From an uncultured Alistipes sp. (GTDB lineage: Bacteria > Bacteroidota > Bacteroidia > Bacteroidales > Rikenellaceae): a stretch of 50,891 nucleotides of DNA. Below, in pieces: positions 4,696 through 13,950 of the stretch. Where the stretch lies: the NCBI GenBank assembly GCA_944321945.1, contig CALUNE010000017.1, positions 1 to 50,891 of the forward strand, given 5' to 3'. The notes under the pieces are model-generated. The model was given only the letters and a program-made list of their open reading frames with translations. It was not told where the DNA came from and searched no databases. A program made the position numbers and the translations under genes. The stretch's first letter is position 1. Each line of letters starts with the position of its first letter.

Positions 4696-4743
4696 GTTGT
4701 TTGTTATTTGAGTTTATGTGTCCTATTCTTTGGTTTTGCCGCG

Positions 4744-4751
4744 CAAAAGTA
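4744..4751 (-). promoter_or_regulatory. -7 box for the alpha-oxoamine synthase gene
   Basis: The minus strand reads TACTTTTG, 48 bases before the start codon at 4695. A TTG about 21 bases further upstream is a weak -33 candidate. Confidence 0.55.
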
Positions 4752-4805
4752 CAAATAATCCGACGATTTTAGCAATCAAAGGTAGCCGTTTTTTGCGCGT
4801 CCCGG

Positions 4806-4826
4806 ATACGCATTTATGCGTATTTT
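4806..4826. other. Left attachment site (attL) of the 4.2-kb element
   Basis: The core ATTTATGCGTATTTT (4812-4826) recurs exactly at 8984-8998. Here it is part of a perfect inverted repeat, ATACGCAT-TT-ATGCGTAT (4806-4823), the type of paired core sites tyrosine recombinases bind. The matching left arm is not preserved at the right copy, as expected if it comes from host DNA on the left side. Confidence 0.7.
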
Positions 4827-4971
4827 CAAAAGATTCAGCGTCCAACAGCCAAAAGCAGCCATCGGCATCTCATGACAGCCCGGTCATTACCGGAGAGTTG
4901 GACCCGGTGCCGATTCCTGCGAATGGCTGTTTTTTATCGGTCTTTTCCTGTTCCCGTTTTGTTACTATTAT

Positions 4972-5025
4972 GTTACCCGGGAACCGAATCTCTTGTTACC
5001 CGGATGTTACCCAGGTGTTACCCGA
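4972..5025 (+). repeat. Left arm-type sites, four direct GTTACCC repeats
   Basis: GTTACCCGG at 4972, GTTACCCGG at 4995, GTTACCCAG at 5006 and GTTACCCGA at 5017. The last three are spaced exactly 11 bp apart, so they face the same side of the helix. The sequence reappears near the right end (8906-8925). They probably bind the N-terminal domain of the element's integrase. Confidence 0.7.
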
Positions 5026-5096
5026 AGAAAAAATTTGCAATGACATCGAATCCTTTCGCTAAAACCCGAATATAATTTCTAAACAAAAAATGAGAT

Positions 5097-6239
5097 ATGA
5101 TGCACGAGAAAGAGATCATAAGATTGCGAAGGAAGAGAATTCAATCGGGGGAATCCCTCTACCTCGATAGTTACTTCAAGGGAAAACGGAGATATGAATT
5201 TCTTCGGTTGTATTTAATACCCGAACGGACAAAAGCAGACAGACTCAAAAATGAACAGACCCTTCGTCTTGCAAATATGGTCAAAGCAAAACGATCGGTG
5301 GAGTTATTCAACAACAAATACGGGTTCACGAACGAAAAACCGGAAGTCAATCTGATCCAATACATCCGTTTGGTCATGGAGAACAAGGAGAAACAGGGGA
5401 AAACCGGAATCAAGAGCACCTTTGAAACGTTAATCTATCATCTGACCAAATATCGAGGGGAAAAGATTCTGCTATCCGATCTGGATGACCGATACACCAA
5501 AGGATTCGTCCTCTATCTTTCTACCGCAATTTCCCGAACGAGTGGAACCACATTGAAAACATCCTCGCAACATAACATCTACACAAGTTTGAAAACGATT
5601 GTTCATCAAGCAATTAAAGATAATCTGTTGACTACCGATCCTACGAAATCGATCGATCCTCCCCGAATGGTCCTCCCTCACAAGGAGTTCTTGACGGAGG
5701 AGGAGTTGAAACGACTCATTCGAACTCCCTGTTCAAAGGAGATTGTGAAACGATCGTTCCTGTTCTGTTGCTTCACTGGTTTGAGAATCTCCGATGTCCG
5801 GGAACTTACGTGGAAAAAGGTGACCTTCGAAGAACAAGGTGCACACATCAACTACCGACAAAAGAAGACCAAAATCGAAAACTATGTTCCGCTCTCGGAG
5901 AATGCAATTTCAGTCTTACCTCCGAAAGACGACAAATCAGACTCCGATCTGGTCTTCATGTTACCTCCGGAGACAACGATCCGTAAAACATTAAAGGAAT
6001 GGATGACGAATGCAAAGATCGACAAACATATCACCTTCCATTCATCCAGACATACATGTGCAACCTTGTTGTTGAACTCGGGAGTGGACATCTATACCGT
6101 CAAGGAGATCCTGGGACATACCGACATAGGAACCACCATGAAGTACACGAAGGTAATCGACAAAACCAAACGGATTGCAGTCAACAAGATCCCGAATTTA
6201 TATTCGACGAAAGAGAAATCCGAAGGAGTTCCCATGTAA
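5097..6239 (+). CDS. Tyrosine integrase of the 4.2-kb element
   Basis: Site-specific recombinase of 380 residues. A basic N-terminal arm-binding region (KEIIRLRRKRIQSGESLYLDSYFKGKRRYEF) is followed by a SAM-like core-binding domain (about 95-190) and the catalytic domain (about 200-360). All catalytic residues are visible: Arg in TGLRISDVRELTW, HSSRHTCATLL, EILGHTDIGTTMKYTKV with the nucleophile Tyr. Two ATG codons stand in tandem (5097 and 5100); either may be used. It is the first gene inside the left attachment site and lies just downstream of the repeated arm sites, so Int binding may also control its own expression. Base composition is much lower in GC than in host genes. It is distinct from the recombinase at 448-1665. 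Confidence 0.95.
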   Translation: MMHEKEIIRLRRKRIQSGESLYLDSYFKGKRRYEFLRLYLIPERTKADRLKNEQTLRLANMVKAKRSVELFNNKYGFTNEKPEVNLIQYIRLVMENKEKQGKTGIKSTFETLIYHLTKYRGEKILLSDLDDRYTKGFVLYLSTAISRTSGTTLKTSSQHNIYTSLKTIVHQAIKDNLLTTDPTKSIDPPRMVLPHKEFLTEEELKRLIRTPCSKEIVKRSFLFCCFTGLRISDVRELTWKKVTFEEQGAHINYRQKKTKIENYVPLSENAISVLPPKDDKSDSDLVFMLPPETTIRKTLKEWMTNAKIDKHITFHSSRHTCATLLLNSGVDIYTVKEILGHTDIGTTMKYTKVIDKTKRIAVNKIPNLYSTKEKSEGVPM

Positions 6240-6251
6240 ATCGAGTTCTCC

Positions 6252-6275
6252 TCCCGGATTTCCCTTTCCGGGATT
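6252..6275 (+). terminator. Possible terminator after the integrase
   Basis: TCCCGGA (6252-6258) and TCCGGGA (6267-6273), 13 bases after the integrase stop, followed only by a short T tract. Weak. Confidence 0.4.
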
Positions 6276-6370
6276 TGACTTTCACGAAGGAATAAAACCG
6301 GGAACCTATCAAGAAGATAATAAAAGCAAAATAGCATTTTTTAGAATATTCGGGTTAATTTTGTCCTACG

Positions 6371-6612
6371 CAATACCCCTAAGAGTGTTGGAGTTAGGAA
6401 ACATTTTTATACCTTTGTGGTGTTCCTTCGGGAACCGACATATTTGATGAAAGTGTTTTGCTTCATCCTTGAGAGAAAATGTGGTAGTTTTCAAGAATAC
6501 AAGGAGAACCAACAACACTCATCACTTGTATTGGTATGTTTATTTCTCAACATATCATACAGGTGTGGGGTATTGTTTATTTGTATTCGGGTTCTACCAC
6601 AACCTTCTCTCA
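6371..6612 (+). ncRNA. Highly structured non-coding region (RNA or single-strand origin)
   Basis: This stretch has no convincing coding frame but many complementary segments. Pairs seen: CAATACCCC (6371-6379) with GGGGTATTG (6567-6575); CCTAA/TTAGG hairpin (6378-6398) whose loop GAGTGTTG (6383-6390) matches CAACACTC (6513-6520) in the loop of another hairpin, AATACAAG/CTTGTATT (6496-6503, 6525-6532); GTTCC-TTCG-GGAAC (6422-6435), a UUCG tetraloop stem; GATGAA/TTCATC (6446-6467); TGAGAGAA..TGTGGTAG (6470-6487) with CTACCACA..TTCTCTCA (6594-6612). Some helices exclude one another, so alternative folds or pseudoknots are likely. It may be a regulatory RNA, or the single-strand or packaging origin of a rolling-circle element. 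Function unknown. Confidence 0.5.
6388..6417 (+). promoter_or_regulatory. Promoter inside the structured region
   Basis: TTG (6388-6390), a 19-base spacer, then TACCTTTG (6410-6417), a close match to the Bacteroidetes consensus. Transcription would start near 6422, at the base of the UUCG hairpin, and run through the structured region to the lipoprotein gene. Confidence 0.6.
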
Positions 6613-6690
6613 GATAGACAAACAACTCCACACTTTCTTTTTTAATAAAACACCATTAAGGAGTTGGATGGTAACAAAATTATTCAAACT

Positions 6691-7269
6691 ATGTTATTAT
6701 CTACCAAACACGACCTCTCCCAACTCTTAATCCAATCGGTGATATTCTCTCTCTTGGGAATAACTTTGTCATCTTGCAATCTGGGACGAGTTGAATTAGT
6801 CAAAGAAGATATCGTCGTTGAAAACTGCATCAGAGTTCCAAAACAAGACGGAGAACTTAAAATTCGATATTATGGCAAAGATGACGATTCCACAGAAAGT
6901 TATGATCTAATATTAGATCTTGTCGTTGAATGTATTAGAGAGATCGATTCTTTTGAAGATTTTCCATTTATTCAAGTCAATTTATTGGATGAGAATGAAG
7001 TACGATTAACATATCTTACATACAATGTAAATAGAGACCTTTTTAAGCATAAAGGAATCAAATCTCATATCGAATTTAGCTTAACTCTTGATAATGATTC
7101 ATTAAGCAAAAAAGAACTTAAACAAATCAAAAAGAAGACCAAACACATATCTATACAATCTAATATCGAAAAAACTGAAGAAGAAAAAAGAGAAGAGGAG
7201 AAAAAAAAGCAAGAACAAGCAGCAGAAGAACTATCCAATGCGATATTAAAAGCAATGTTCGGTCTTTAA
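6691..7269 (+). CDS. Putative lipoprotein of unknown function (element cargo)
   Basis: I do not recognise this 192-residue protein. From the ATG at 6691 it has a lipoprotein signal: a short polar start, the hydrophobic stretch LLIQSVIFSLLGI, and the lipobox LSSC with Cys29 as lipidation site. The mature part is acidic and mixed alpha/beta in appearance (DGELKIRYYGKDDDS, FPFIQVNLLDENEVRLTYL). It ends in a charged coiled-coil-like segment (EEEKREEEKKKQEQAAEEL). A TTG at 6664 in the same frame would give a longer signal region but is less likely. It is the only gene in the element without an obvious mobility role, so it is cargo or a surface factor. It probably uses the promoter at 6388-6417, and it ends at a strong shared terminator. 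Confidence 0.75.
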   Translation: MLLSTKHDLSQLLIQSVIFSLLGITLSSCNLGRVELVKEDIVVENCIRVPKQDGELKIRYYGKDDDSTESYDLILDLVVECIREIDSFEDFPFIQVNLLDENEVRLTYLTYNVNRDLFKHKGIKSHIEFSLTLDNDSLSKKELKQIKKKTKHISIQSNIEKTEEEKREEEKKKQEQAAEELSNAILKAMFGL

Positions 7270-7275
7270 CGACAG

Positions 7276-7324
7276 AAAACCGGGAGAAAATCGCTCAAAA
7301 AAGATGATTTTCTCCCGGTTTTTT
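7276..7324. terminator. Bidirectional terminator between convergent genes
   Basis: AAAACCGGGAGAAAATC (7276-7292) pairs perfectly with GATTTTCTCCCGGTTTT (7306-7322); A/T runs flank both sides. It separates the lipoprotein gene (plus) from the Rep gene (minus). Confidence 0.9.
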
Positions 7325-7340
7325 ATGTCGTTATATAATT

Positions 7341-8279
7341 TTACACCACTTGTTCAACAAGGGAGTCTAACTCCTCGATTTGCGGATTTCGGACGATTCC
7401 CAACGAACGATTCTCCAATAATTGCTTCGTCTGTCTTTTGATCTCCGACAACTGTCTCTTATCTAACAGACCCAACTCGAACTGATGGTCGAATGTCTTA
7501 AAAAATTCATTCATTCCTCCGTATCTCTCCACCAACATCAACATCCCCATCTTGTTCAAATCTCGAATCCCCTTACATCCATTGATGTCAATCTCGTATT
7601 CGTTAACCTTGACGATCTTGCGATATTCTCCCTTCCAAAAGTCCACGATACGACGATAGAACTGGACATCGTATAACATCGGAACGGTAATCTTGTCCAC
7701 CCCAAACATACGATTCACATGATTCTTCAACCGGAGTTCGTATCTCAATAAATATCGATCCGAATATCCTTCCGGAATCCGATCTTTTCGATAGGATGAC
7801 TCCTTGATCTTATCGTAGAACACCAATTGTTTCTTATCCGACAGACAGTTATAATATAACCCCTCCAAACTGTGATGGGTTTGCTCCAACCGTTTGTAAC
7901 GGGGCAAACTCCCCAGATAATAAAAATAGGATTCCGGAGAATTCTTGACCTCGAAATTATATGCGATATCCATTCGGGAGACGGTTGCATGATTCAATGA
8001 GACGTGTAAAAGATCCGATAGTTTCTCGATTGCATGAAACGTGTCATCCCGGGTAAAGTTGACCATATTATCCCCATAAAGGAACTTGCACAGACTCCCG
8101 TTCCCGATCGATAATGTAGTCTCTGTGGATCTCACCGTCAAATTTTCGAGACGGGTTGTAAATACTACTCCGTTACATGTCCTTGTCTCTTCGAAACTAT
8201 GATCTCGTGTTATCGTTTTCAGAATATTGAGTTGGTTCACATCCTTATATTTTAAATTAAATTGAATAGTATCGAACAT
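7341..8279 (-). CDS. Phage/plasmid replication initiator, gene II/X family
   Basis: Putative rolling-circle replication protein (312 residues) resembling filamentous-phage gene II/X and related plasmid initiators. The family pattern is visible from MFDTIQFNLKYKD, through LSIGNGSLCKFLYGDN (glycine-rich GSLxKFLYG), LLHVSLNHATVSRMDIAYNF, the YYLGSLPRYKR segment, LVFYDKIKE and YLLRYELRLKNH. II/X proteins nick the double-strand origin and stay bound through tyrosine; candidate tyrosines are plentiful, but I cannot assign the catalytic one. The first ATG in frame is at 8279; a TTG at 8291 is the only earlier start. The small HTH gene lies upstream in the same direction, and short inverted repeats lie in between (8325-8372). 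This gene is what makes the element plasmid- or phage-like. Confidence 0.7.
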   Translation of the reverse strand: MFDTIQFNLKYKDVNQLNILKTITRDHSFEETRTCNGVVFTTRLENLTVRSTETTLSIGNGSLCKFLYGDNMVNFTRDDTFHAIEKLSDLLHVSLNHATVSRMDIAYNFEVKNSPESYFYYLGSLPRYKRLEQTHHSLEGLYYNCLSDKKQLVFYDKIKESSYRKDRIPEGYSDRYLLRYELRLKNHVNRMFGVDKITVPMLYDVQFYRRIVDFWKGEYRKIVKVNEYEIDINGCKGIRDLNKMGMLMLVERYGGMNEFFKTFDHQFELGLLDKRQLSEIKRQTKQLLENRSLGIVRNPQIEELDSLVEQVV

Positions 8280-8324
8280 AAACCATAACAAATTTTTTGT
8301 ATTAAAACCATATTAATATTACAT

Positions 8325-8372
8325 CGAGGATCCCCTCGGAGATCACGGGATAACCTCCGAGATGAATCCATC
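8325..8372. repeat. Overlapping short inverted repeats upstream of rep
   Basis: CGAGG-ATCC-CCTCG (8325-8338), CTCGGAG with CTCCGAG (8335-8341 and 8355-8361), and GATG-AATC-CATC (8361-8372) follow each other about 50 bp before the Rep start. Stacked hairpins like these are typical of rolling-circle double-strand origins or of Rep operators; neither role is shown. Confidence 0.45.
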
Positions 8373-8439
8373 GAATAGATGTAACACAGGTTGTCATAGA
8401 TTGTCGATACGTCCTTTTTATAATATATATCCTCCATAA

Positions 8440-8727
8440 TCATCTCTTGTTATTTTTTAAATCTCGTACCACTACTTGTTGTTGCATTTCGTCAACGGTA
8501 TCCTGTCGATTTCGCAACAACCAGGTTTCGATCTCCTCTTTGAGAAAATAAATTTTCTTTCCGTTGGGTTTGTAGTAGGGGATCAACTTATCACTGGTCA
8601 AGTGATACAGGTAATCCGTACTGATCCCGTACATCATAGACACCTCGGTCGAGGTCAAAACGTTCTTGGAGTTCATCAACAGGAGATGTTTGATCTCCGT
8701 TAACTCCGTATTTAATATACCCATCAT
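8440..8727 (-). CDS. HTH (MerR/excisionase-like) DNA-binding protein
   Basis: A 95-residue protein with a winged HTH of the HTH_17 / excisionase type at about 22-73: VLTSTEVSMMYGISTDYLYHL, then the wing YKPNGKKIYFLKEEIETWL. It ends in a polar tail rich in Gln, Val and basic residues (MQQQVVVRDLKNNKR). It begins with two ATG codons (8727, 8724). In Bacteroidales mobile elements such proteins serve as excisionases or as regulators of replication. It is transcribed toward rep and probably shares its transcript. A 63-codon frame starts inside its stop codon (ATGA at 8443-8440) and runs into rep, but it shows no recognisable features. Confidence 0.8.
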   Translation of the reverse strand: MMGILNTELTEIKHLLLMNSKNVLTSTEVSMMYGISTDYLYHLTSDKLIPYYKPNGKKIYFLKEEIETWLLRNRQDTVDEMQQQVVVRDLKNNKR

Positions 8728-8810
8728 ATTTATAATTTTTATTATGTTCTTCGTGCTATAACAATCTATTTAGTATATCATCGAGATTTCATTTCGATTA
8801 GGAACACGAC

Positions 8811-8842
8811 ATAAAAAAACCCGATTCGCAATGAATCGGGTT
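8811..8842 (-). terminator. Terminator near the right end of the element
   Basis: AACCCGATTC (8818-8827) / GAATCGGGTT (8833-8842) with a 5-base loop; on the minus strand it is followed by a T7 run. It points away from the symporter, so it would stop symporter read-through before the element's HTH and rep genes. Confidence 0.75.
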
Positions 8843-8905
8843 ATGTAAAATTCAAGAAATCAGATTCTTATATTCCTTACAAATTCTTTGTATTTAGATA
8901 TTTTT

Positions 8906-8925
8906 GTTACCTGGTTGTTACCCGG
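8906..8925 (+). repeat. Right arm-type sites, two direct GTTACCYGG repeats
   Basis: GTTACCTGG at 8906 and GTTACCCGG at 8917, 11 bp apart and in the same orientation as the left-end copies. They lie about 60 bp inside the right attachment site. Confidence 0.7.
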
Positions 8926-8983
8926 ACATAGGGTTCAAGAAAGTAATAATATGGCAATCAATCAGTTGAGCATAAAGGTGCGG

Positions 8984-8998
8984 ATTTATGCGTATTTT
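8984..8998. other. Right attachment site (attR) of the 4.2-kb element
   Basis: Exact second copy of ATTTATGCGTATTTT. It overlaps the symporter stop codon (TAA, 8997-8999) by two bases, so integration leaves the gene's coding sequence intact. Confidence 0.7.
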
Positions 8999-10163
8999 AC
9001 ACCTCTTTGTGCCTTTTGCGGGCGACGGCATCGACGATGACGGCCACGGCGCCGTCACCCGTGACGTTGGTTGCCGTACCGAAGCTGTCCATGGCGATGT
9101 AGGTGGCGATCATCAGCCCGCAGAGCGTTTCGTCGAATCCCAGCATCGATTCGAGCAGCCCCAGCGCCGCCATGATCGCACCGCCCGGCACACCCGGTGC
9201 CGCCACCATCGTCACCCCCAACAGCAGGATGAAGCCCGCGAAGGTGGTCATCGAAAGATCCATCCCCGCCAGCATCGAGACGGCCAGCGCGCAGGCCGTG
9301 ATCTTCATCATCGACCCCGAGAGGTGGATCGTCGCACACAGCGGAATGACGAACGACGCCAGCTCGGGCCGCACGCCCAGCCGCAGTGTCCGCTCGAGGG
9401 TCACCGGAATCGTTGCCGCCGACGACTGCGTGCCGAGGGCCGTGACATAGGCCGGCAGCATCATACGCAGCATCGTCAGCGGATTCCGCCGCGCCGCAAG
9501 CCCCGCCACCGAGAACTGGAAGAGCAGCAGCAGAAGCGTCAGCACGAAGATCACGACGATCAGCTTGACGAAGACCCCCAGCACGGAGGCCACCTGTCCC
9601 GACTGCGTGATCGAGAGAAAGATACCGAAGATATAGAACGGCAGCAGCGGCAGAATGACCCGTGCGATGACCCGTTCGATGATGCGCTTGAAGTCGTCGA
9701 GGGCCGCCTTGAGTGTCACGGAGCCCGTCGCGGCCATGCCCAGTCCCACGACGAAGGCCAGCACGAGGGCCGACATGACCCCCATGACCGGCGGCATGGC
9801 AATTGTAAAGTAGGGGGTCAGGGTCTCGCCCGCGGCGGGCGGTGTCACCTCCGATCCGGCGAGCAGCGTCGGAAAGACCGCCCGCCCGACGAAACAGGTT
9901 CCAAAACCCGAAATCAACGTGAAACCGTAGGCCAGCGCGGCCGTCAGCGCCAGCAGCCGGCCGGCATTCCGCCCCAGATCGGCAATGCCCGGAGCCACCA
10001 GCCCGAAGATCAGCAGCGGAATGACGAATTCCAGAAACTGCCCGAACACGGCATTGAACGTCAACGCCACCCGGGTCACCCACCCGGGCATGAACAACCC
10101 GCAGGCAATGCCCAGCACGATGGCCAGCACGACGCGCGGCAGAAGACCGAATTTTCGCTTCAT
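8997..10163 (-). CDS. Dicarboxylate/amino acid:cation symporter (DAACS family)
   Basis: Inner-membrane sodium- or proton-coupled carrier of 388 residues. The sequence has alternating hydrophobic helices throughout, the serine-rich re-entrant loop in GTQSSAATIPVTLERTLRLGV (about residue 245), SGSMMKITACALA, and the C-terminal signature YIAMDSFGTATNVTGDGAVAVIVDA with the Asp/Asn residues that bind substrate and cation. Which substrate it carries (glutamate, aspartate, serine/threonine or C4-dicarboxylates) cannot be told. The basic C-terminus ARKRHKEV ends exactly at the attachment site of the integrative element. It is transcribed divergently from the radical SAM gene across a 49-bp gap. Confidence 0.9.
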   Translation of the reverse strand: MKRKFGLLPRVVLAIVLGIACGLFMPGWVTRVALTFNAVFGQFLEFVIPLLIFGLVAPGIADLGRNAGRLLALTAALAYGFTLISGFGTCFVGRAVFPTLLAGSEVTPPAAGETLTPYFTIAMPPVMGVMSALVLAFVVGLGMAATGSVTLKAALDDFKRIIERVIARVILPLLPFYIFGIFLSITQSGQVASVLGVFVKLIVVIFVLTLLLLLFQFSVAGLAARRNPLTMLRMMLPAYVTALGTQSSAATIPVTLERTLRLGVRPELASFVIPLCATIHLSGSMMKITACALAVSMLAGMDLSMTTFAGFILLLGVTMVAAPGVPGGAIMAALGLLESMLGFDETLCGLMIATYIAMDSFGTATNVTGDGAVAVIVDAVARKRHKEV

Positions 10164-10175
10164 CGGAGAACGATT

Positions 10176-10208
10176 TTTGTAAAGGTATGAAAAATTTAGC
10201 TACTTTTG
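10176..10208 (+). promoter_or_regulatory. Promoter of the radical SAM gene
   Basis: TTTG (10176-10179), 21-base spacer, TACTTTTG (10201-10208). Only four bases separate the -7 box from the ATG at 10213, so the message should be leaderless. Confidence 0.65.
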
Positions 10209-10212
10209 TCAC

Positions 10213-10986
10213 ATGACATCCCTTTATCACGACATCATCTACGGCCCGGTACACTCGCGGCGGCTGGGCCTCTCGCTCGGGGTCAATCTGTTGCCCACCG
10301 AGTCGAAACTCTGCTCGTTCGACTGCATCTACTGCGAATGCGGCTGGAATGCCGACCATCCCGGCGGGCGCCGCTTCAATGCCCGGGAGGAGGTGCGCAC
10401 CCATCTCGAAACGGCTCTGCGGCAGATGTCCGAAGCCGGTACACCGCCCGATGTCATCACCTTCGCCGGAAACGGCGAACCGACGCTTCACCCCGATTTC
10501 GAGGGGGTGATCGACGACACGCTCGCCCTGCGCGACCGCTACTGCCCCTCGGCGAAGGTCTCCGTGCTGTCGAACGCCACGCAGATCCACCGCGACGAGG
10601 TACGGCGGGCGCTGTTGCGCGTCGACAACAACATCCAGAAGCTCGATTCGGCGTTCGACGCCACGGTACGACGCATCGACAACCCGCAGAACCCCCGCTA
10701 TGCGGTCCGCGACATCGTCCGCGAGATGAAGCGATTCGAGGGGCGGATGATCCTCCAGACGATGTTCCTGCGCGGCGAGTGCAACGGTCAGGCCATCGAC
10801 AATACCACGGAAGAGGAGGTCGAGGCGTGGCTGCGGCTCGTCGACGAAATCCGCCCGCGGCAGGTGATGGTCTATTCGCTCGACCGCGACACGCCCTGCC
10901 CGACCCTCGAGAAGGTCTCCCGCGAGGAGTTGCAGCGCATCGCCGCCCGGGTCGAGGCACTGGGCATCCCCTGCTCCGTCGCCTGA
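10213..10986 (+). CDS. Radical SAM protein
   Basis: A 257-residue iron-sulfur enzyme of the COG0731-like group. The opening YGPVHSRRLGLSLGVNLLP is the family hallmark; the cluster-binding motif CSFDCIYCECG (CxxxCxxC) follows at about residues 33-43. VITFAGNGEPTLHP matches the SAM-binding GGE-type motif, and SVLSNATQI and MFLRGECNG are later barrel strands. The exact reaction is unknown for this subgroup. A -7 box only four bases upstream suggests leaderless translation. The gene shares its regulatory region with the symporter. Confidence 0.88.
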   Translation: MTSLYHDIIYGPVHSRRLGLSLGVNLLPTESKLCSFDCIYCECGWNADHPGGRRFNAREEVRTHLETALRQMSEAGTPPDVITFAGNGEPTLHPDFEGVIDDTLALRDRYCPSAKVSVLSNATQIHRDEVRRALLRVDNNIQKLDSAFDATVRRIDNPQNPRYAVRDIVREMKRFEGRMILQTMFLRGECNGQAIDNTTEEEVEAWLRLVDEIRPRQVMVYSLDRDTPCPTLEKVSREELQRIAARVEALGIPCSVA

Positions 10987-11110
10987 CCGGGGAGGGACAG
11001 GGCGGATGGCGGCGCAGGCCCCGGCAACGAGACCAGACAAGCCCCCGACAAAGAAGTCCCGGCAAAGAAACCATACAAAGCCCCCCGGCAAAGCAGTCTG
11101 GAACCGCCCG
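10987..11110. repeat. Degenerate CCGGCAAAG-type repeats in the spacer
   Basis: The 196-bp spacer before yaaA is GC-rich and contains several imperfect copies of (C)CCGGCAAAG / CCCGACAAAG / CCCGGCAACG about 15-20 bp apart. No coding frame is supported. Confidence 0.4.
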
Positions 11111-11182
11111 GAACCACCCGGATGAAGTTTTCCCGGCGGGAACCCGTATCTCACCCTTATCTCAAGAAAAGATCGAACCACC

Positions 11183-11935
11183 ATGCAGATCCTGCTCTCG
11201 TGCGCCAAGACGATGGCCGAACATGCCACCATCCGGGTGCCCTACACCACCGAACCGCTCTATCGCGCCGAAGCCGATGCGGCAGCCGCCGCACTGGCCT
11301 CGCTCACGGCCGACGATCTGGGGCGTCTGCTGCGCGTCAACCGTACGCTGGCGGCCGAAAACCGACGCCGCTACGCCTCGTTCCACGCCGCGGAGACGAT
11401 GCCCGCCCTCGCGGCCTACACCGGGATTGTCTTCAAGCGGATCGACCCGGCGAGCTTCTCTACGGCGGATTTCGAATATGCCCAGGAGCATCTGAACATC
11501 ACCTCGTTCCTCTACGGACTGCTGCGCCCGCTGGATGCCATCCGCCCCTACCGGCTTGAGGGCGACGCCATCCTCCCGGGCGATGAACAGACGCGCTTCG
11601 CCTTCTGGCAACGGCGGCTCACCGACCGGTTTCTCGACAAAATCCGCGCCGACGACGGCATCCTGCTCAACCTGGCCAGCAGCGAGATGAAACGCCTCTT
11701 CGACTGGCGGCGCCTCACCCGCGAGGTGCGGATCATCACCCCCGAATTCCGCATCCGCGAGGGCGACCGGCTCCGCACCATCGTCGTCTACACGAAGATG
11801 TGCCGCGGCGAGATGACGCGCTTTGCACTCCAGGGCCGGATCGACGACCCCGAGCAGCTGAAGGCCTTCGAATGGGAGGGATTCCGGTTCGACCCGGCGG
11901 CAAGCCGCGGAGACACATGGTTCTTCACGATGTAG
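11183..11935 (+). CDS. yaaA: Peroxide stress protein YaaA (DUF328)
   Basis: A 250-residue member of the YaaA/DUF328 family, DNA-binding proteins that limit oxidative damage by lowering free intracellular iron in E. coli. Diagnostic segments are the start MQILLSCAKTM, YTGIVFKRIDP, YAQEHLNITSFLYGLLRPLDAIRPYRLEGD, LLNLASSEMKRLFDW and the C-terminal FEWEGFRFDP. Length matches the family. It stands alone on the plus strand. Convergent dxs lies downstream, with a hairpin in between. Confidence 0.92.
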   Translation: MQILLSCAKTMAEHATIRVPYTTEPLYRAEADAAAAALASLTADDLGRLLRVNRTLAAENRRRYASFHAAETMPALAAYTGIVFKRIDPASFSTADFEYAQEHLNITSFLYGLLRPLDAIRPYRLEGDAILPGDEQTRFAFWQRRLTDRFLDKIRADDGILLNLASSEMKRLFDWRRLTREVRIITPEFRIREGDRLRTIVVYTKMCRGEMTRFALQGRIDDPEQLKAFEWEGFRFDPAASRGDTWFFTM

Positions 11936-11959
11936 ATCCGACCCGGCCGGACAACAAGA

Positions 11960-11989
11960 AAAGGCCTCTTCCCGAGCGGGGAGAGGCTT
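11960..11989 (-). terminator. Terminator for dxs (also faces yaaA)
   Basis: AAGGCCTCTTCCC-GAGC-GGGGAGAGGCTT forms a strong stem; on the minus strand it is followed by CCTTTTCTTG. It sits about 75 bp after the dxs stop codon. Confidence 0.75.
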
Positions 11990-12063
11990 AACCTGTAAAA
12001 CAGAGAGAGGGGAAATCGAAAATACCGGCCGCGATATGCCCGACGTCCGGCTGCAGGCAGGCG

Positions 12064-13950
12064 CTATTCGACCGAGCGGATCGCCAGCAGGGCCCGCAGG
12101 ATCGCCTCCTCGTCGTAGCCGCAGAGGGCCTTCAGCTGGGCGGGTGTACCGTGTTCGACCCACTGGTCGCCGATACCCAGGCGCGTGACCTTCACGTCGT
12201 AGCCGCGCATGGCGAAGAAGATCGTCACGGCCTCGCCCACACCGCCGCGCAGACAGCCGTCCTCGACGGTGATGACCCGTCCGAAACGGCGCCCCACCTC
12301 GTCCAACAGCACCTCGTCCAGCGGTTTCACGTAACGCAGGTCGTAATGGGCCGCCTCGATCCCTTCGGCCGAGGCCCGTTCGGCAGCCCGCGCCGCCGCA
12401 TTGCCCGTCGTACCGATCGTCACCAGCGCCACATCCGACCCCTCGCGCAGCTTCCGCCCGCGTCCCACGGGCAACTTCGCAAAGGCCTCGCCGCGCCAGG
12501 GGGTCCCCTCGCCACAACCGCGCGGATAGCGGATCATGAAGGGATGGCCGGCATGCAGCGCCGTATACATCAGGTTGCGCAGTTCGGATTCGTTCATCGG
12601 TGCGGCGATCGTCAGCCCCGGGATGGCCCGGAAGGCCTCCATGTCGAAGACCCCGTGGTGGGTCACGCCGTCCTCGCCGACCAGCCCGCCCCGGTCGAGG
12701 CACATCACCACCGGCAGATCCTGGATCGCCACGTCGTGGATCACGTTGTCATAGGCCCGCTGCATGAAGGTCGAGTAGATGTTGCAGAAGGGGATCATCC
12801 CCGCGGCGGCCAGTCCGGCCGAGAAGGTCACGGCATGCCCCTCGGCGATACCCACGTCGAAACACCGCTCGGGCATCTCGCGCATGAGGATGTTCATCGA
12901 ACAGCCGGTCGGCATGGCGGGAGTCACCCCCACGACCCGGCTGTCGAGCCGCGCCAGTTCGAGCAGCGTCTCGCCGAAGACATCCTGGTAGCGCGCCGCA
13001 CCGCCCGGCGACTTGATCCGCTCGCCCGTATCGGGATTGAAACGCCCGGGGGCATGCCACACCGGCTGATCGTGTTCGGCCGGAAGATAACCCTTGCCCT
13101 TGACCGTCAGCACGTGCAGCAGTTTCGGGCCCTCGATGTCGCGCAGGGCCCGCAGCGTACGGACCAGCTCCTTGAGGTTGTGGCCGTCGACGGGACCGAA
13201 ATAGCGGAAATTGAGACTCTCGAAGAAGTTGCTCTTGTTCAGCACCCCCTGCTTGACGGCGTTGCCGGCCTTCTGGCAGAATCGCAGCAACCGCGGCGTA
13301 TGCGAAAGGATTCCCCACAGCCGCTGCTTGAGCCGGTTGTAGTGGACCGAGGTCGAGATCTTGAGCAGGTAGTTCTTCAGTGCGCCGGTGGCCTGATCGA
13401 TGGCCATGTTGTTGTCGTTGAGGATCACCAGCAGGTTCGTGCGTTTCGAGGCGCCGGCGTTGTTCAACCCCTCGAAGGCCAGTCCGCCGGTCATCGAACC
13501 GTCGCCGATGACGGCCACCACCTGATGCTTTTCGCCGCGCAGTTCGGCCGCCTTGGCCATGCCGAAGGCCGCCGAGATCGACACCGAGGCGTGGCCGCCT
13601 CCGAAGGCGTCGTACTCGCTCTCGGACATGCGCGGGAAGCCGCTGATGCCTCCCAGCTGGCGTTTGGTGCGGAATGCCTCGCGACGTCCCGTGATGATCT
13701 TGTGGGCATAGGTCTGGTGCCCCACGTCCCAGACGATCCGGTCCTGAGGCGTATCGAAGACATAATGCAGCGCCGCGGCCAGCTCCACGGCCCCGAGGCT
13801 CGATGCCAGATGGCCCGGATTGACCGAACACTCCTCGATGATATAGTGGCGCAACTCGTCGCAATAGAGCCGCAGCTCTTCGGGCGAGAGTCTCTTCAGA
13901 TCACGGGGCGAGGAGACCCGATTCAGCAATTTATAATCTTCACACGACAT
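12064..13950 (-). CDS. dxs: 1-deoxy-D-xylulose-5-phosphate synthase
   Basis: First enzyme of the MEP isoprenoid pathway: a thiamine-diphosphate enzyme that joins pyruvate and glyceraldehyde 3-phosphate. About 628 residues. It shows DRIVWDVGHQTYAHKIITGR, FGGGHASVSISAAFGMA, the ThDP motif GDGSMTGGLAFEGLNNAG through NDNNMAI, YFGPVDGHN, then the pyrimidine-binding domain (GIAEGHAVTFSAGLA, the catalytic-type Glu) and a C-terminal transketolase-like domain (LRYVKPLDE, VTVEDGCLRGGVGEAV). The start at 13950 (MSCEDYKLLNRVSSP) matches the family. The -7 box TATCTTTG ends eight bases before it, so the leader is very short. ispG of the same pathway lies at 49193-50701. Confidence 0.97.
   Translation of the reverse strand: MSCEDYKLLNRVSSPRDLKRLSPEELRLYCDELRHYIIEECSVNPGHLASSLGAVELAAALHYVFDTPQDRIVWDVGHQTYAHKIITGRREAFRTKRQLGGISGFPRMSESEYDAFGGGHASVSISAAFGMAKAAELRGEKHQVVAVIGDGSMTGGLAFEGLNNAGASKRTNLLVILNDNNMAIDQATGALKNYLLKISTSVHYNRLKQRLWGILSHTPRLLRFCQKAGNAVKQGVLNKSNFFESLNFRYFGPVDGHNLKELVRTLRALRDIEGPKLLHVLTVKGKGYLPAEHDQPVWHAPGRFNPDTGERIKSPGGAARYQDVFGETLLELARLDSRVVGVTPAMPTGCSMNILMREMPERCFDVGIAEGHAVTFSAGLAAAGMIPFCNIYSTFMQRAYDNVIHDVAIQDLPVVMCLDRGGLVGEDGVTHHGVFDMEAFRAIPGLTIAAPMNESELRNLMYTALHAGHPFMIRYPRGCGEGTPWRGEAFAKLPVGRGRKLREGSDVALVTIGTTGNAAARAAERASAEGIEAAHYDLRYVKPLDEVLLDEVGRRFGRVITVEDGCLRGGVGEAVTIFFAMRGYDVKVTRLGIGDQWVEHGTPAQLKALCGYDEEAILRALLAIRSVE

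Follow-up and report, generated by a model that had tools for sequence, protein, structure and literature searches.

A 4.2-kb integrative element of gut Alistipes and the covarying structured RNA ahead of its variable cargo gene

The stretch of DNA considered here, termed the window, comprises 50,891 nucleotides of an uncultured Alistipes sp. (assembly GCA_944321945.1, contig CALUNE010000017.1, forward strand) and harbors a 4.2-kb element that occupies a single, constant chromosomal position in some gut Alistipes. Between two short direct repeats it carries a tyrosine integrase, a promoter-like motif followed by a structured leader RNA, a predicted lipoprotein as cargo, a terminator-like inverted repeat and, on the opposite strand, a gene II-type replication protein (Rep) and a small helix-turn-helix (HTH) protein. 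An initial annotation, made from the sequence alone, had listed the repeats and the four genes; Pfam matches for the integrase (PF00589), Rep (PF05144), and the HTH protein (PF12728) agree with it, as does an open reading frame with lipobox-like residues for the lipoprotein, and the conserved structured RNA that precedes the cargo was absent from that inventory. The element constitutes a delimited four-gene integrative unit in a gut genus; empty sites exist naturally, and its Rep is of the rolling-circle type. More important than the element is the RNA, a large covarying structure without an Rfam 15 family that heads mainly exported proteins at the loci examined. If this leader regulates the genes downstream, it would represent a common layer of gene control, so far unnamed, in a dominant gut phylum.

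The borders are formed by exact 15-bp repeats, ATTTATGCGTATTTT, at 4812–4826 (attL core, plus strand) and 8984–8998 (attR core, plus strand), and on both sides the host sequence runs on as in the empty sites of other genomes. These are the sole matches within the window at up to two mismatches (0.01 expected from shuffles), and in the 2.23-Mb assembly the 15-mer occurs exactly only at these two places, with one further copy bearing one mismatch. The G+C fraction of the element interior is 0.31–0.44 as compared with 0.55–0.67 in the stretches at 2.5–4.5 kb and 9–12 kb. The left core overlaps a palindrome at 4806–4823 (ATACGCAT-TT-ATGCGTAT, two 8-bp arms around a 2-bp spacer), and the right core overlaps the stop codon (8997–8999) of a minus-strand symporter reading frame, which stays open. 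Repeats, AT-rich interior, palindrome, and intact symporter gene had all been described correctly in the initial annotation. The names symporter and kbl for the genes neighboring the element were assigned by eye.

A query with the left flank had matches in 95 of the 101 same-genus genomes sampled; 20 loci, the window itself among them, were then retrieved. Six of these (L006–L011) exhibit the empty site that had been proposed as a check, in which the kbl flank and the symporter end are joined by a single copy of the core; in the L006, L009, and L010 alignments the flanks overlap by 17 bp, the core lying within. Both flanks are present at a larger spacing in four loci (L012, L013, L019, and L023), and the remaining nine show the left flank alone within the fetched stretch. 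The site was also found occupied in other genomes. Genome G187 carries an element at the same site with both ends (L064), ATTTATACGTATTT being common to its attL and attR and its host arms being the same as in the empty site of L006, whereas L067/L003 and a viral-collection contig (L105) provide the right end and the left end, respectively, of further occupied sites. Since same-genus genomes possess the empty junction with a single copy of the core, the insertion signal goes beyond chance, and flanking repeats and one-copy empty sites together indicate that the element is integrated at this site by mobility, present or past. At a further locus (L005, genome G023) the left flank continues beyond the core with about 40 bp resembling the left end of the element and then with other DNA, in which a lipoprotein-like start was noted by eye; this may represent another or a decayed insertion at the same site.

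The integrase (5097–6239, plus strand, 380 amino acids, open) looks complete and matches PF00589 (1.1e-32), PF13102, and PF17293, the last of these an arm-DNA-binding domain. Residues R230, K257, H315, R318, H341, and Y350, to which we assign catalytic roles, are invariant in five aligned sequences including the window copy; this set of six catalytic-type residues and the PF00589 match point to a catalytic tyrosine recombinase. Five TGTTAC direct repeats, mostly in 11-bp steps (4960–5025, plus strand, starting at 4960, 4971, 4994, 5005, and 5016), lie on the integrase side of the core and two more, 11 bp apart (8905–8925, plus strand), on its other side; they likely serve as arm-type sites. 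The stronger argument for this function is their spacing, identical in L064 and, for the five, conserved within 1 bp in L105, rather than their number, which is only moderately unusual (seven in the window versus 2.31 expected; at least seven in 3 of 100 shuffles). The HTH protein (8440–8727, minus strand, 95 amino acids) matches PF12728 (3.4e-10) and is excisionase-like. In genome G129, a single larger element at a different site contains both an integrase relative (64%) and a Rep relative (64%), together with an exact 12-bp repeat placed like att. A second, shorter integrase relative in the same genome (L066, G129:C5:1295296-1296105; 62% identical) is probably a remnant.

Rep (7341–8279, minus strand, 312 amino acids) belongs to the G2P/Phage_CRI family (PF05144, 2.1e-20, 73.9 bits versus a cut-off of 21.7), as the initial annotation had anticipated in calling it II/X-type. 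An AlphaFold2 model built with six sequences (pLDDT 83, pTM 0.73) finds as its top match in the PDB RepDE (4cwe; E = 1.6e-7, probability 1.00, TM-score 0.48/0.54), which we take to be a Rep_trans-type initiator. Its best matches among solved structures are the rolling-circle initiators RepDE and a Geobacillus Rep (E from 1.6e-7 to 5.6e-6), and an Inoviridae protein comes first among viral models, so that Rep is predicted to adopt a rolling-circle-initiator-like fold. Both alignments show F154, Y155, K157, K159, and E160 without variation, Y155 being the candidate catalytic tyrosine. A 63-amino-acid open reading frame on the minus strand (window 8252–8443) overlaps the start of Rep and is retained, with 61 amino acids, in L064 and L067.

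Of 247 genomes sampled from the order, 11 hold relatives detected with the Rep profile, the host genome (G000) being one of them. In the fetched neighborhoods, BLAST shows an integrase in six of the 11 (L159, L161, L163 in two frames, L165, L167, and L168) and an HTH relative in seven (L158–L161, L163, L167, and L168), with neither in L164; several of the other neighborhoods end at contig ends. Integrase, HTH protein, and Rep thus form a recurring Bacteroidales module. The general layout, for whose exact form the initial annotation knew no named element, is not unique, since the arrangement recurs with the same Rep family. At E ≤ 1e-3, close Rep relatives numbered none in phage records and one, from Parabacteroides, in plasmid records. 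Related integrase, HTH, and Rep elements are present in Parabacteroides distasonis NZ_OY725790.1 (L109) and in a viral contig (L141), where the leader RNA lies behind Rep, at a distance of about 0.4 kb and 1.2 kb, respectively, and is followed by a run of small genes. NZ_OY725790.1 is labelled a plasmid, yet it carries aspartate kinase and looks chromosomal. The host genome itself possesses a second Rep-bearing locus (L069, G000:C18:16000-30000, 6714–13107), in which a distant Phage_CRI protein is accompanied by the leader RNA and by genes for outer-membrane-like and lipoprotein-like proteins, with a small resolvase and a serine recombinase of 500 amino acids coming next; gene order is similar in L070 (G023).

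Such a set of genes could also belong to a phage satellite, packaged by a helper phage, in which Rep would make DNA for packaging and the surface lipoprotein would exclude competing phages. The gene II-type Rep and the Inoviridae protein heading its viral fold matches would fit this, as would two leader-bearing scaffolds in a phage collection and the gene content of distant relatives: viral contigs L142 and L144 continue from integrase, HTH, and Rep into HTH or terminase-small-subunit-like proteins, a hint of packaging in some members of the family, and in L158 a DUF5681 gene follows Rep. However, the L144 terminase and L142 HTH matches fall below the Pfam cut-offs, the four element proteins match no packaging, coat, or Zot family in Pfam or PHROG, and no helper was identified; we regard a satellite as rather unlikely. 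Phage-inducible chromosomal islands (PICIs) are small and combine an integrase, an HTH protein, and a replication gene with a fixed att site and accessory cargo. The element shares all of these features with satellites such as PICIs and PICMIs, the latter being the subject of PMC10803314, but matches no packaging or capsid-redirecting gene and has no known helper. Membership in the PICIs was rejected since TerS-type packaging-redirecting genes were not matched in the four proteins and terminase-like or DUF5681 genes appear only in more distant relatives. With inoviruses (filamentous phages) the element has in common the Phage_CRI/G2P replication protein and fold matches including Inoviridae proteins. 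Roux et al. 2019 (PMC6813254) found that only pI is suited as a universal inovirus marker. The Zot/pI morphogenesis ATPase was not matched among the four proteins in Pfam and PHROG, coat genes not being specially sought, and inovirus membership was rejected as well.

It is likewise rather doubtful that the element is mobilizable, with Rep doubling as a relaxase and a resident conjugative element carrying it. Initiators can assume such a second role, as exemplified by the Rep_trans-type MobT relaxases of integrative and conjugative elements. The top fold match to RepDE and the spread of relatives over several Bacteroidales families are compatible with this explanation, but a Pfam scan of the four proteins yielded no known relaxase family or coupling protein (oriT was not sought). 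Actinomycete integrative and conjugative elements and Rep_trans/MobT elements are integrative elements with a rolling-circle Rep. Integrase, excisionase-like gene, and rolling-circle-type initiator are shared with them; in contrast, no transfer gene was matched in the element, and its Rep is of the G2P type by sequence.

The cargo gene (6691–7269, plus strand) encodes a predicted lipoprotein of 192 amino acids with LSSC as lipobox-like residues. Scanned from 6694, the protein has no match in Pfam or PHROG and only a chance-like one in NCBIfam. It is followed by a perfect 17-bp inverted repeat with a 13-bp loop (7276–7322, plus strand), which is terminator-like. Comparison of relatives shows different genes in the place of the cargo: the product is 192 amino acids long in the window and L064, a 607-amino-acid lipoprotein in L067 (leucine-rich-repeat-like, by eye), a 1004-amino-acid BspA-type protein in L065, and a 732-amino-acid leucine-rich-repeat protein in L105. 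Window and L067 DNA are 98% identical over 6466–6681 and 89% identical over a stretch that starts at 7274 and includes the right chromosomal flank, and unrelated in between. Because homology to L067 lies on either side of unrelated DNA, cargo cassettes have probably been exchanged between leader and terminator. In L064, a transposase-like open reading frame of 379 amino acids (reverse coordinates 6042–7181, by eye) is located between cargo and Rep.

The region in front of the cargo opens with TAnnTTTG (6410–6417, plus strand; TACCTTTG), which we read as a promoter −7-like motif and which is unchanged in all 26 aligned copies. A 5′ hairpin, GUUCC-UUCG-GGAAC (6422–6435, plus strand), precedes the core of the structured RNA (6446–6637, plus strand), whose closing stem pairs 6449–6456 with 6630–6637. 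The window copy scores 205.9 bits with covariance model R1, which it helped to build. The leader is better conserved at the DNA level than the genes, with 85–87% identity in L065 versus 66–67% for int and rep. The alignment of 26 copies folds as one long unbranched, interrupted stem in which 20 of 50 predicted pairs show compensatory change. For the core alignment, comprising 56 pairs, 97.8% of cells are paired as compared with 88.7% in shuffles, and both sides have changed in 23 pairs and 137 cells (13.2 and 37.5 in shuffles), a level reached in none of 500 shuffles. Slid versions of the structure attain at most 52.6% paired cells, 11 pairs, and 17 cells, a comparison that favors the core structure partly because it was derived from the same sequences. 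Within those pairs that are mostly Watson-Crick, G-U (64 cells) is tolerated far more often than A-C (9 cells), related rows not being independent; retention of G-U with A-C rare fits an RNA made from the cargo strand. The leader RNA possesses a covarying secondary structure. Behind the core, a 3′ hairpin with ACCAU/AUGGU arms (6652–6672, plus strand) exposes the loop GGAGUUG (6660–6666), which can pair with CAACUCC (6623–6629) to form a pseudoknot. In a set of 68 loci, made up of 66 of the 67 R1 loci (L067 omitted) together with L141 and L165, 47 loci form at least 5 bp with their own downstream partner, as compared with a mean of 19.4 and a maximum of 29 when partners are swapped. The signal, clear in this set, is weak in loci of a second model, R2 (16 of 34; swapped mean 9.7, largest 15).

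The leader RNA precedes the cargo in all four close relatives of the element and is spread well beyond them. DNA matches (E ≤ 0.01, at most four candidates scored per genome) occur in 161 of 180 same-genus genomes, and model R1 finds 3–14 copies in each of 15 chosen genomes of the genus. In the order, R1 matches 66 of 247 genomes and 53 of 174 genera. Among 198 genomes of the class, model R2, built from shorter and distant members, matches 50, from 34 of 121 genera; in a sample of the phylum it matches 16 of 148, including two that do not belong to the class. Beyond the genus, most of the genomes sampled have no match; with strict filters and few candidates scored, these counts are lower bounds, and the E-values of the models are rough owing to short calibration. 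Among Rep-bearing loci the leader is present in L165, the only such case among the 11 neighborhoods, in L109 and L141, and within the genus in the window, L064, L065, L067, L069, L070, L073, and L105; it was not found in L068, L072, L074, L142, or L144.

A scan of Rfam 15 against window 4700–9100, four element loci, and 20 further loci gave no family at the span of the RNA itself, the sole match there in the window being mir-568 (E = 2.5), far below its cut-off and at chance level. The DUF805 RNA (RF03081) lies about 47 nt downstream of the new RNA at L119:1386-1454, and the DUF805b RNA (RF02914), in a match under the gathering score, about 80 nt downstream at L177:1736-1768. Both are likewise of the cis-regulatory type and differ in being separate, shorter motifs that do not overlap the new RNA. 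With cis-regulatory leaders and riboswitch candidates of Rfam the RNA shares a conserved covarying structure, a pseudoknot, and a preferred spacing to the start codon, but it precedes unrelated, mostly exported proteins rather than the genes of one pathway. Flavo-1, described in PMC9723704 as occurring on either strand, has no match at the loci scanned, and none of the candidate RNAs named in the excerpted PMC8040213 fits. Neither element nor RNA is named in the portions covered of the literature searched, including PMC8040213, PMC11697453, PMC8632094, PMC11109978, PMC2864571, PMC7366714, PMC6813254, and PMC9723704, where supplementary candidate lists might hold an unnamed entry.

Gene context was counted at 67 of 78 R1 rows, mostly the best match per genome, after omission of nine antisense and two weak second matches. 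At 66 of these loci, an ATG-started open reading frame of at least 60 amino acids begins within 400 nt downstream; a qualifying frame on the opposite, upstream side, which served as the control, exists at 32 of 67. Start codons 40–65 nt behind the RNA are found at 40 of the 66 loci versus 1 of 32 on the opposite side, and hydrophobic N-termini, scored by a simple residue count instead of a signal-peptide predictor, at 49 versus 4. For the 34 R2 loci, a downstream frame is present at 32, with the same spacing at 16 and a hydrophobic N-terminus at 20 (16, 2, and 1, respectively, on the opposite side). The RNA is thus placed consistently before start codons, if less tidily in the complete genome G187, where all 11 copies besides that of the element were judged by eye without best-match selection: a clear exported-protein gene follows five (L203, L206, L207, L209, and L211), and the others include an AbiE-like pair, a 71-amino-acid frame adjoining an integrase, and a frame without signal peptide. 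Pfam assigns 45 families to 63 downstream proteins, led by LRR_5 (9), LRR_8 (5), DUF4988 (4), and outer-membrane barrels (4). At class level the RNA stands 24–31 nt before large frames at L175, L188, L191, L194, and L197, some of which probably account for the three DNA methylase matches among the downstream proteins.

The best reading of these data is a new family of cis-acting leader RNAs common to chromosomes and mobile elements. Multicopy RNAs can also act mainly in trans, or the repeat could be a selfish one that lands before genes; to this we attach a low probability. The presence of 3–14 copies per chosen genome would agree with it, as would the lack of a tidy gene behind several of the G187 copies, but the preferred orientation and spacing to the downstream start codon argue against it. 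FopS, from the multicopy small RNA families that exist in Bacteroides (PMC11697453), is described there as a single-stranded 5′ stretch with a terminator hairpin, an architecture unlike the leader fold, and was rejected as its identity; no Rfam match points to another small RNA.

Taken as a whole, the locus is quite probably a small integrative element of a Bacteroidales-wide family with an exchangeable, leader-headed cargo cassette. Comparison of loci establishes integration at this site, the variation in cargo, the structure of the RNA, and its gene context. A lambda-like integrase with arm sites would join attP to an attB, about 14 bp long, located between the kbl-type and symporter genes, the excisionase-like HTH protein would probably assist excision, and the excised circle would probably be copied by the G2P/RepDE-like rolling-circle initiator. 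The excised form may replicate by rolling circle and have a plasmid or satellite life style, as the initial annotation had suggested. The single swappable cassette would comprise promoter, structured leader RNA, surface protein gene, and terminator, and the leader, as a copy of an RNA family spread well beyond the genus, would most likely act in cis on expression of the gene that follows.

Several observations weigh against this explanation. An attP-like circular-junction pattern had no match in viral contigs. The HTH protein scores slightly below the NCBIfam excisionase cut-off (TIGR01764, 28.5 versus 28.8 bits). The fold matches of Rep have TM-scores of 0.42–0.48 by query length (below 0.5) and root-mean-square deviations of 6–9, and its sequence profile matched no chain among PDB sequences. 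Spacing to the start codon falls outside 40–65 nt at 26 of 66 R1 and 16 of 32 R2 loci, 17 of 66 and 12 of 32, respectively, lack a hydrophobic N-terminus, unrelated genes such as DNA methylase (3) and restriction-type domains (2 each) also lie downstream, and no clear same-strand gene follows closely behind three of the 11 G187 copies (L205, L210, and L212). Finally, PF05144 occurs in only 9 of 180 same-genus genomes, six above the cut-off and four of them strong. This rarity would also suit a decayed island that has lost excision and retains Rep and integrase as relics, as would the transposase-like gene of the G187 copy and the second integrase relative in G129. In contrast, integrase and Rep are open and keep conserved residues in aligned copies, the att repeats are exact, and close copies differ in cargo, which makes decay improbable. 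That the conserved noncoding region is instead a rolling-circle origin folded as single-stranded DNA, in keeping with its position in a Rep-bearing element and with the hairpins often seen at initiation sites of rolling-circle replicons, is very improbable and was rejected as the principal explanation because the region is present in 161 of 180 genomes versus nine with PF05144 and G-U is kept where A-C is rare, the promoter-like motif before it and the start codon at a preferred distance behind it likewise speaking for an RNA.

With regard to how a cis-acting leader might work, an attenuator is a proposal. A U-rich run follows the closing stem, the strand CUCCACAC has two possible pairing partners, the 5′ strand and the internal GUGUGGGG, and two folds of the window RNA are close in energy (−73.0 and −69.4 kcal/mol). 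Omission of the 11 rows also left out of the context count gave 101, of which six were skipped for a missing motif; among the remaining 95, the alternative pairing 3:4 is present in 94 versus 82 in the shuffled control, as compared with 87 versus 28 for 1:4, 91 versus 69 for 2:3, and 80 versus 39 for 1:2. The attenuator is kept as a proposal since the control for pairing 3:4 is weak, and reading the alternative fold from the alignment of distant members proved unreliable. On a par with it, the leader may control translation via the pseudoknotted 3′ hairpin; in the window, 18 nt separate its end from the start codon. More broadly, and somewhat short of an even chance in our estimate, the leaders would form a Bacteroidota-wide class of bistable regulatory RNAs whose copies place acquired surface, defence, and mobile-element genes of chromosome and elements under one RNA-sensed signal, the shared leader serving integrative rolling-circle elements as a homology handle for swapping cargo cassettes.

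The att core belongs to the sequence upstream of the kbl-type gene (window 4806–4826, loci L005–L022), which mostly occurs without the element. Core-like sequence is retained upstream of kbl in 12 of 15 loci where the anchor was found and is perhaps a regulatory site.

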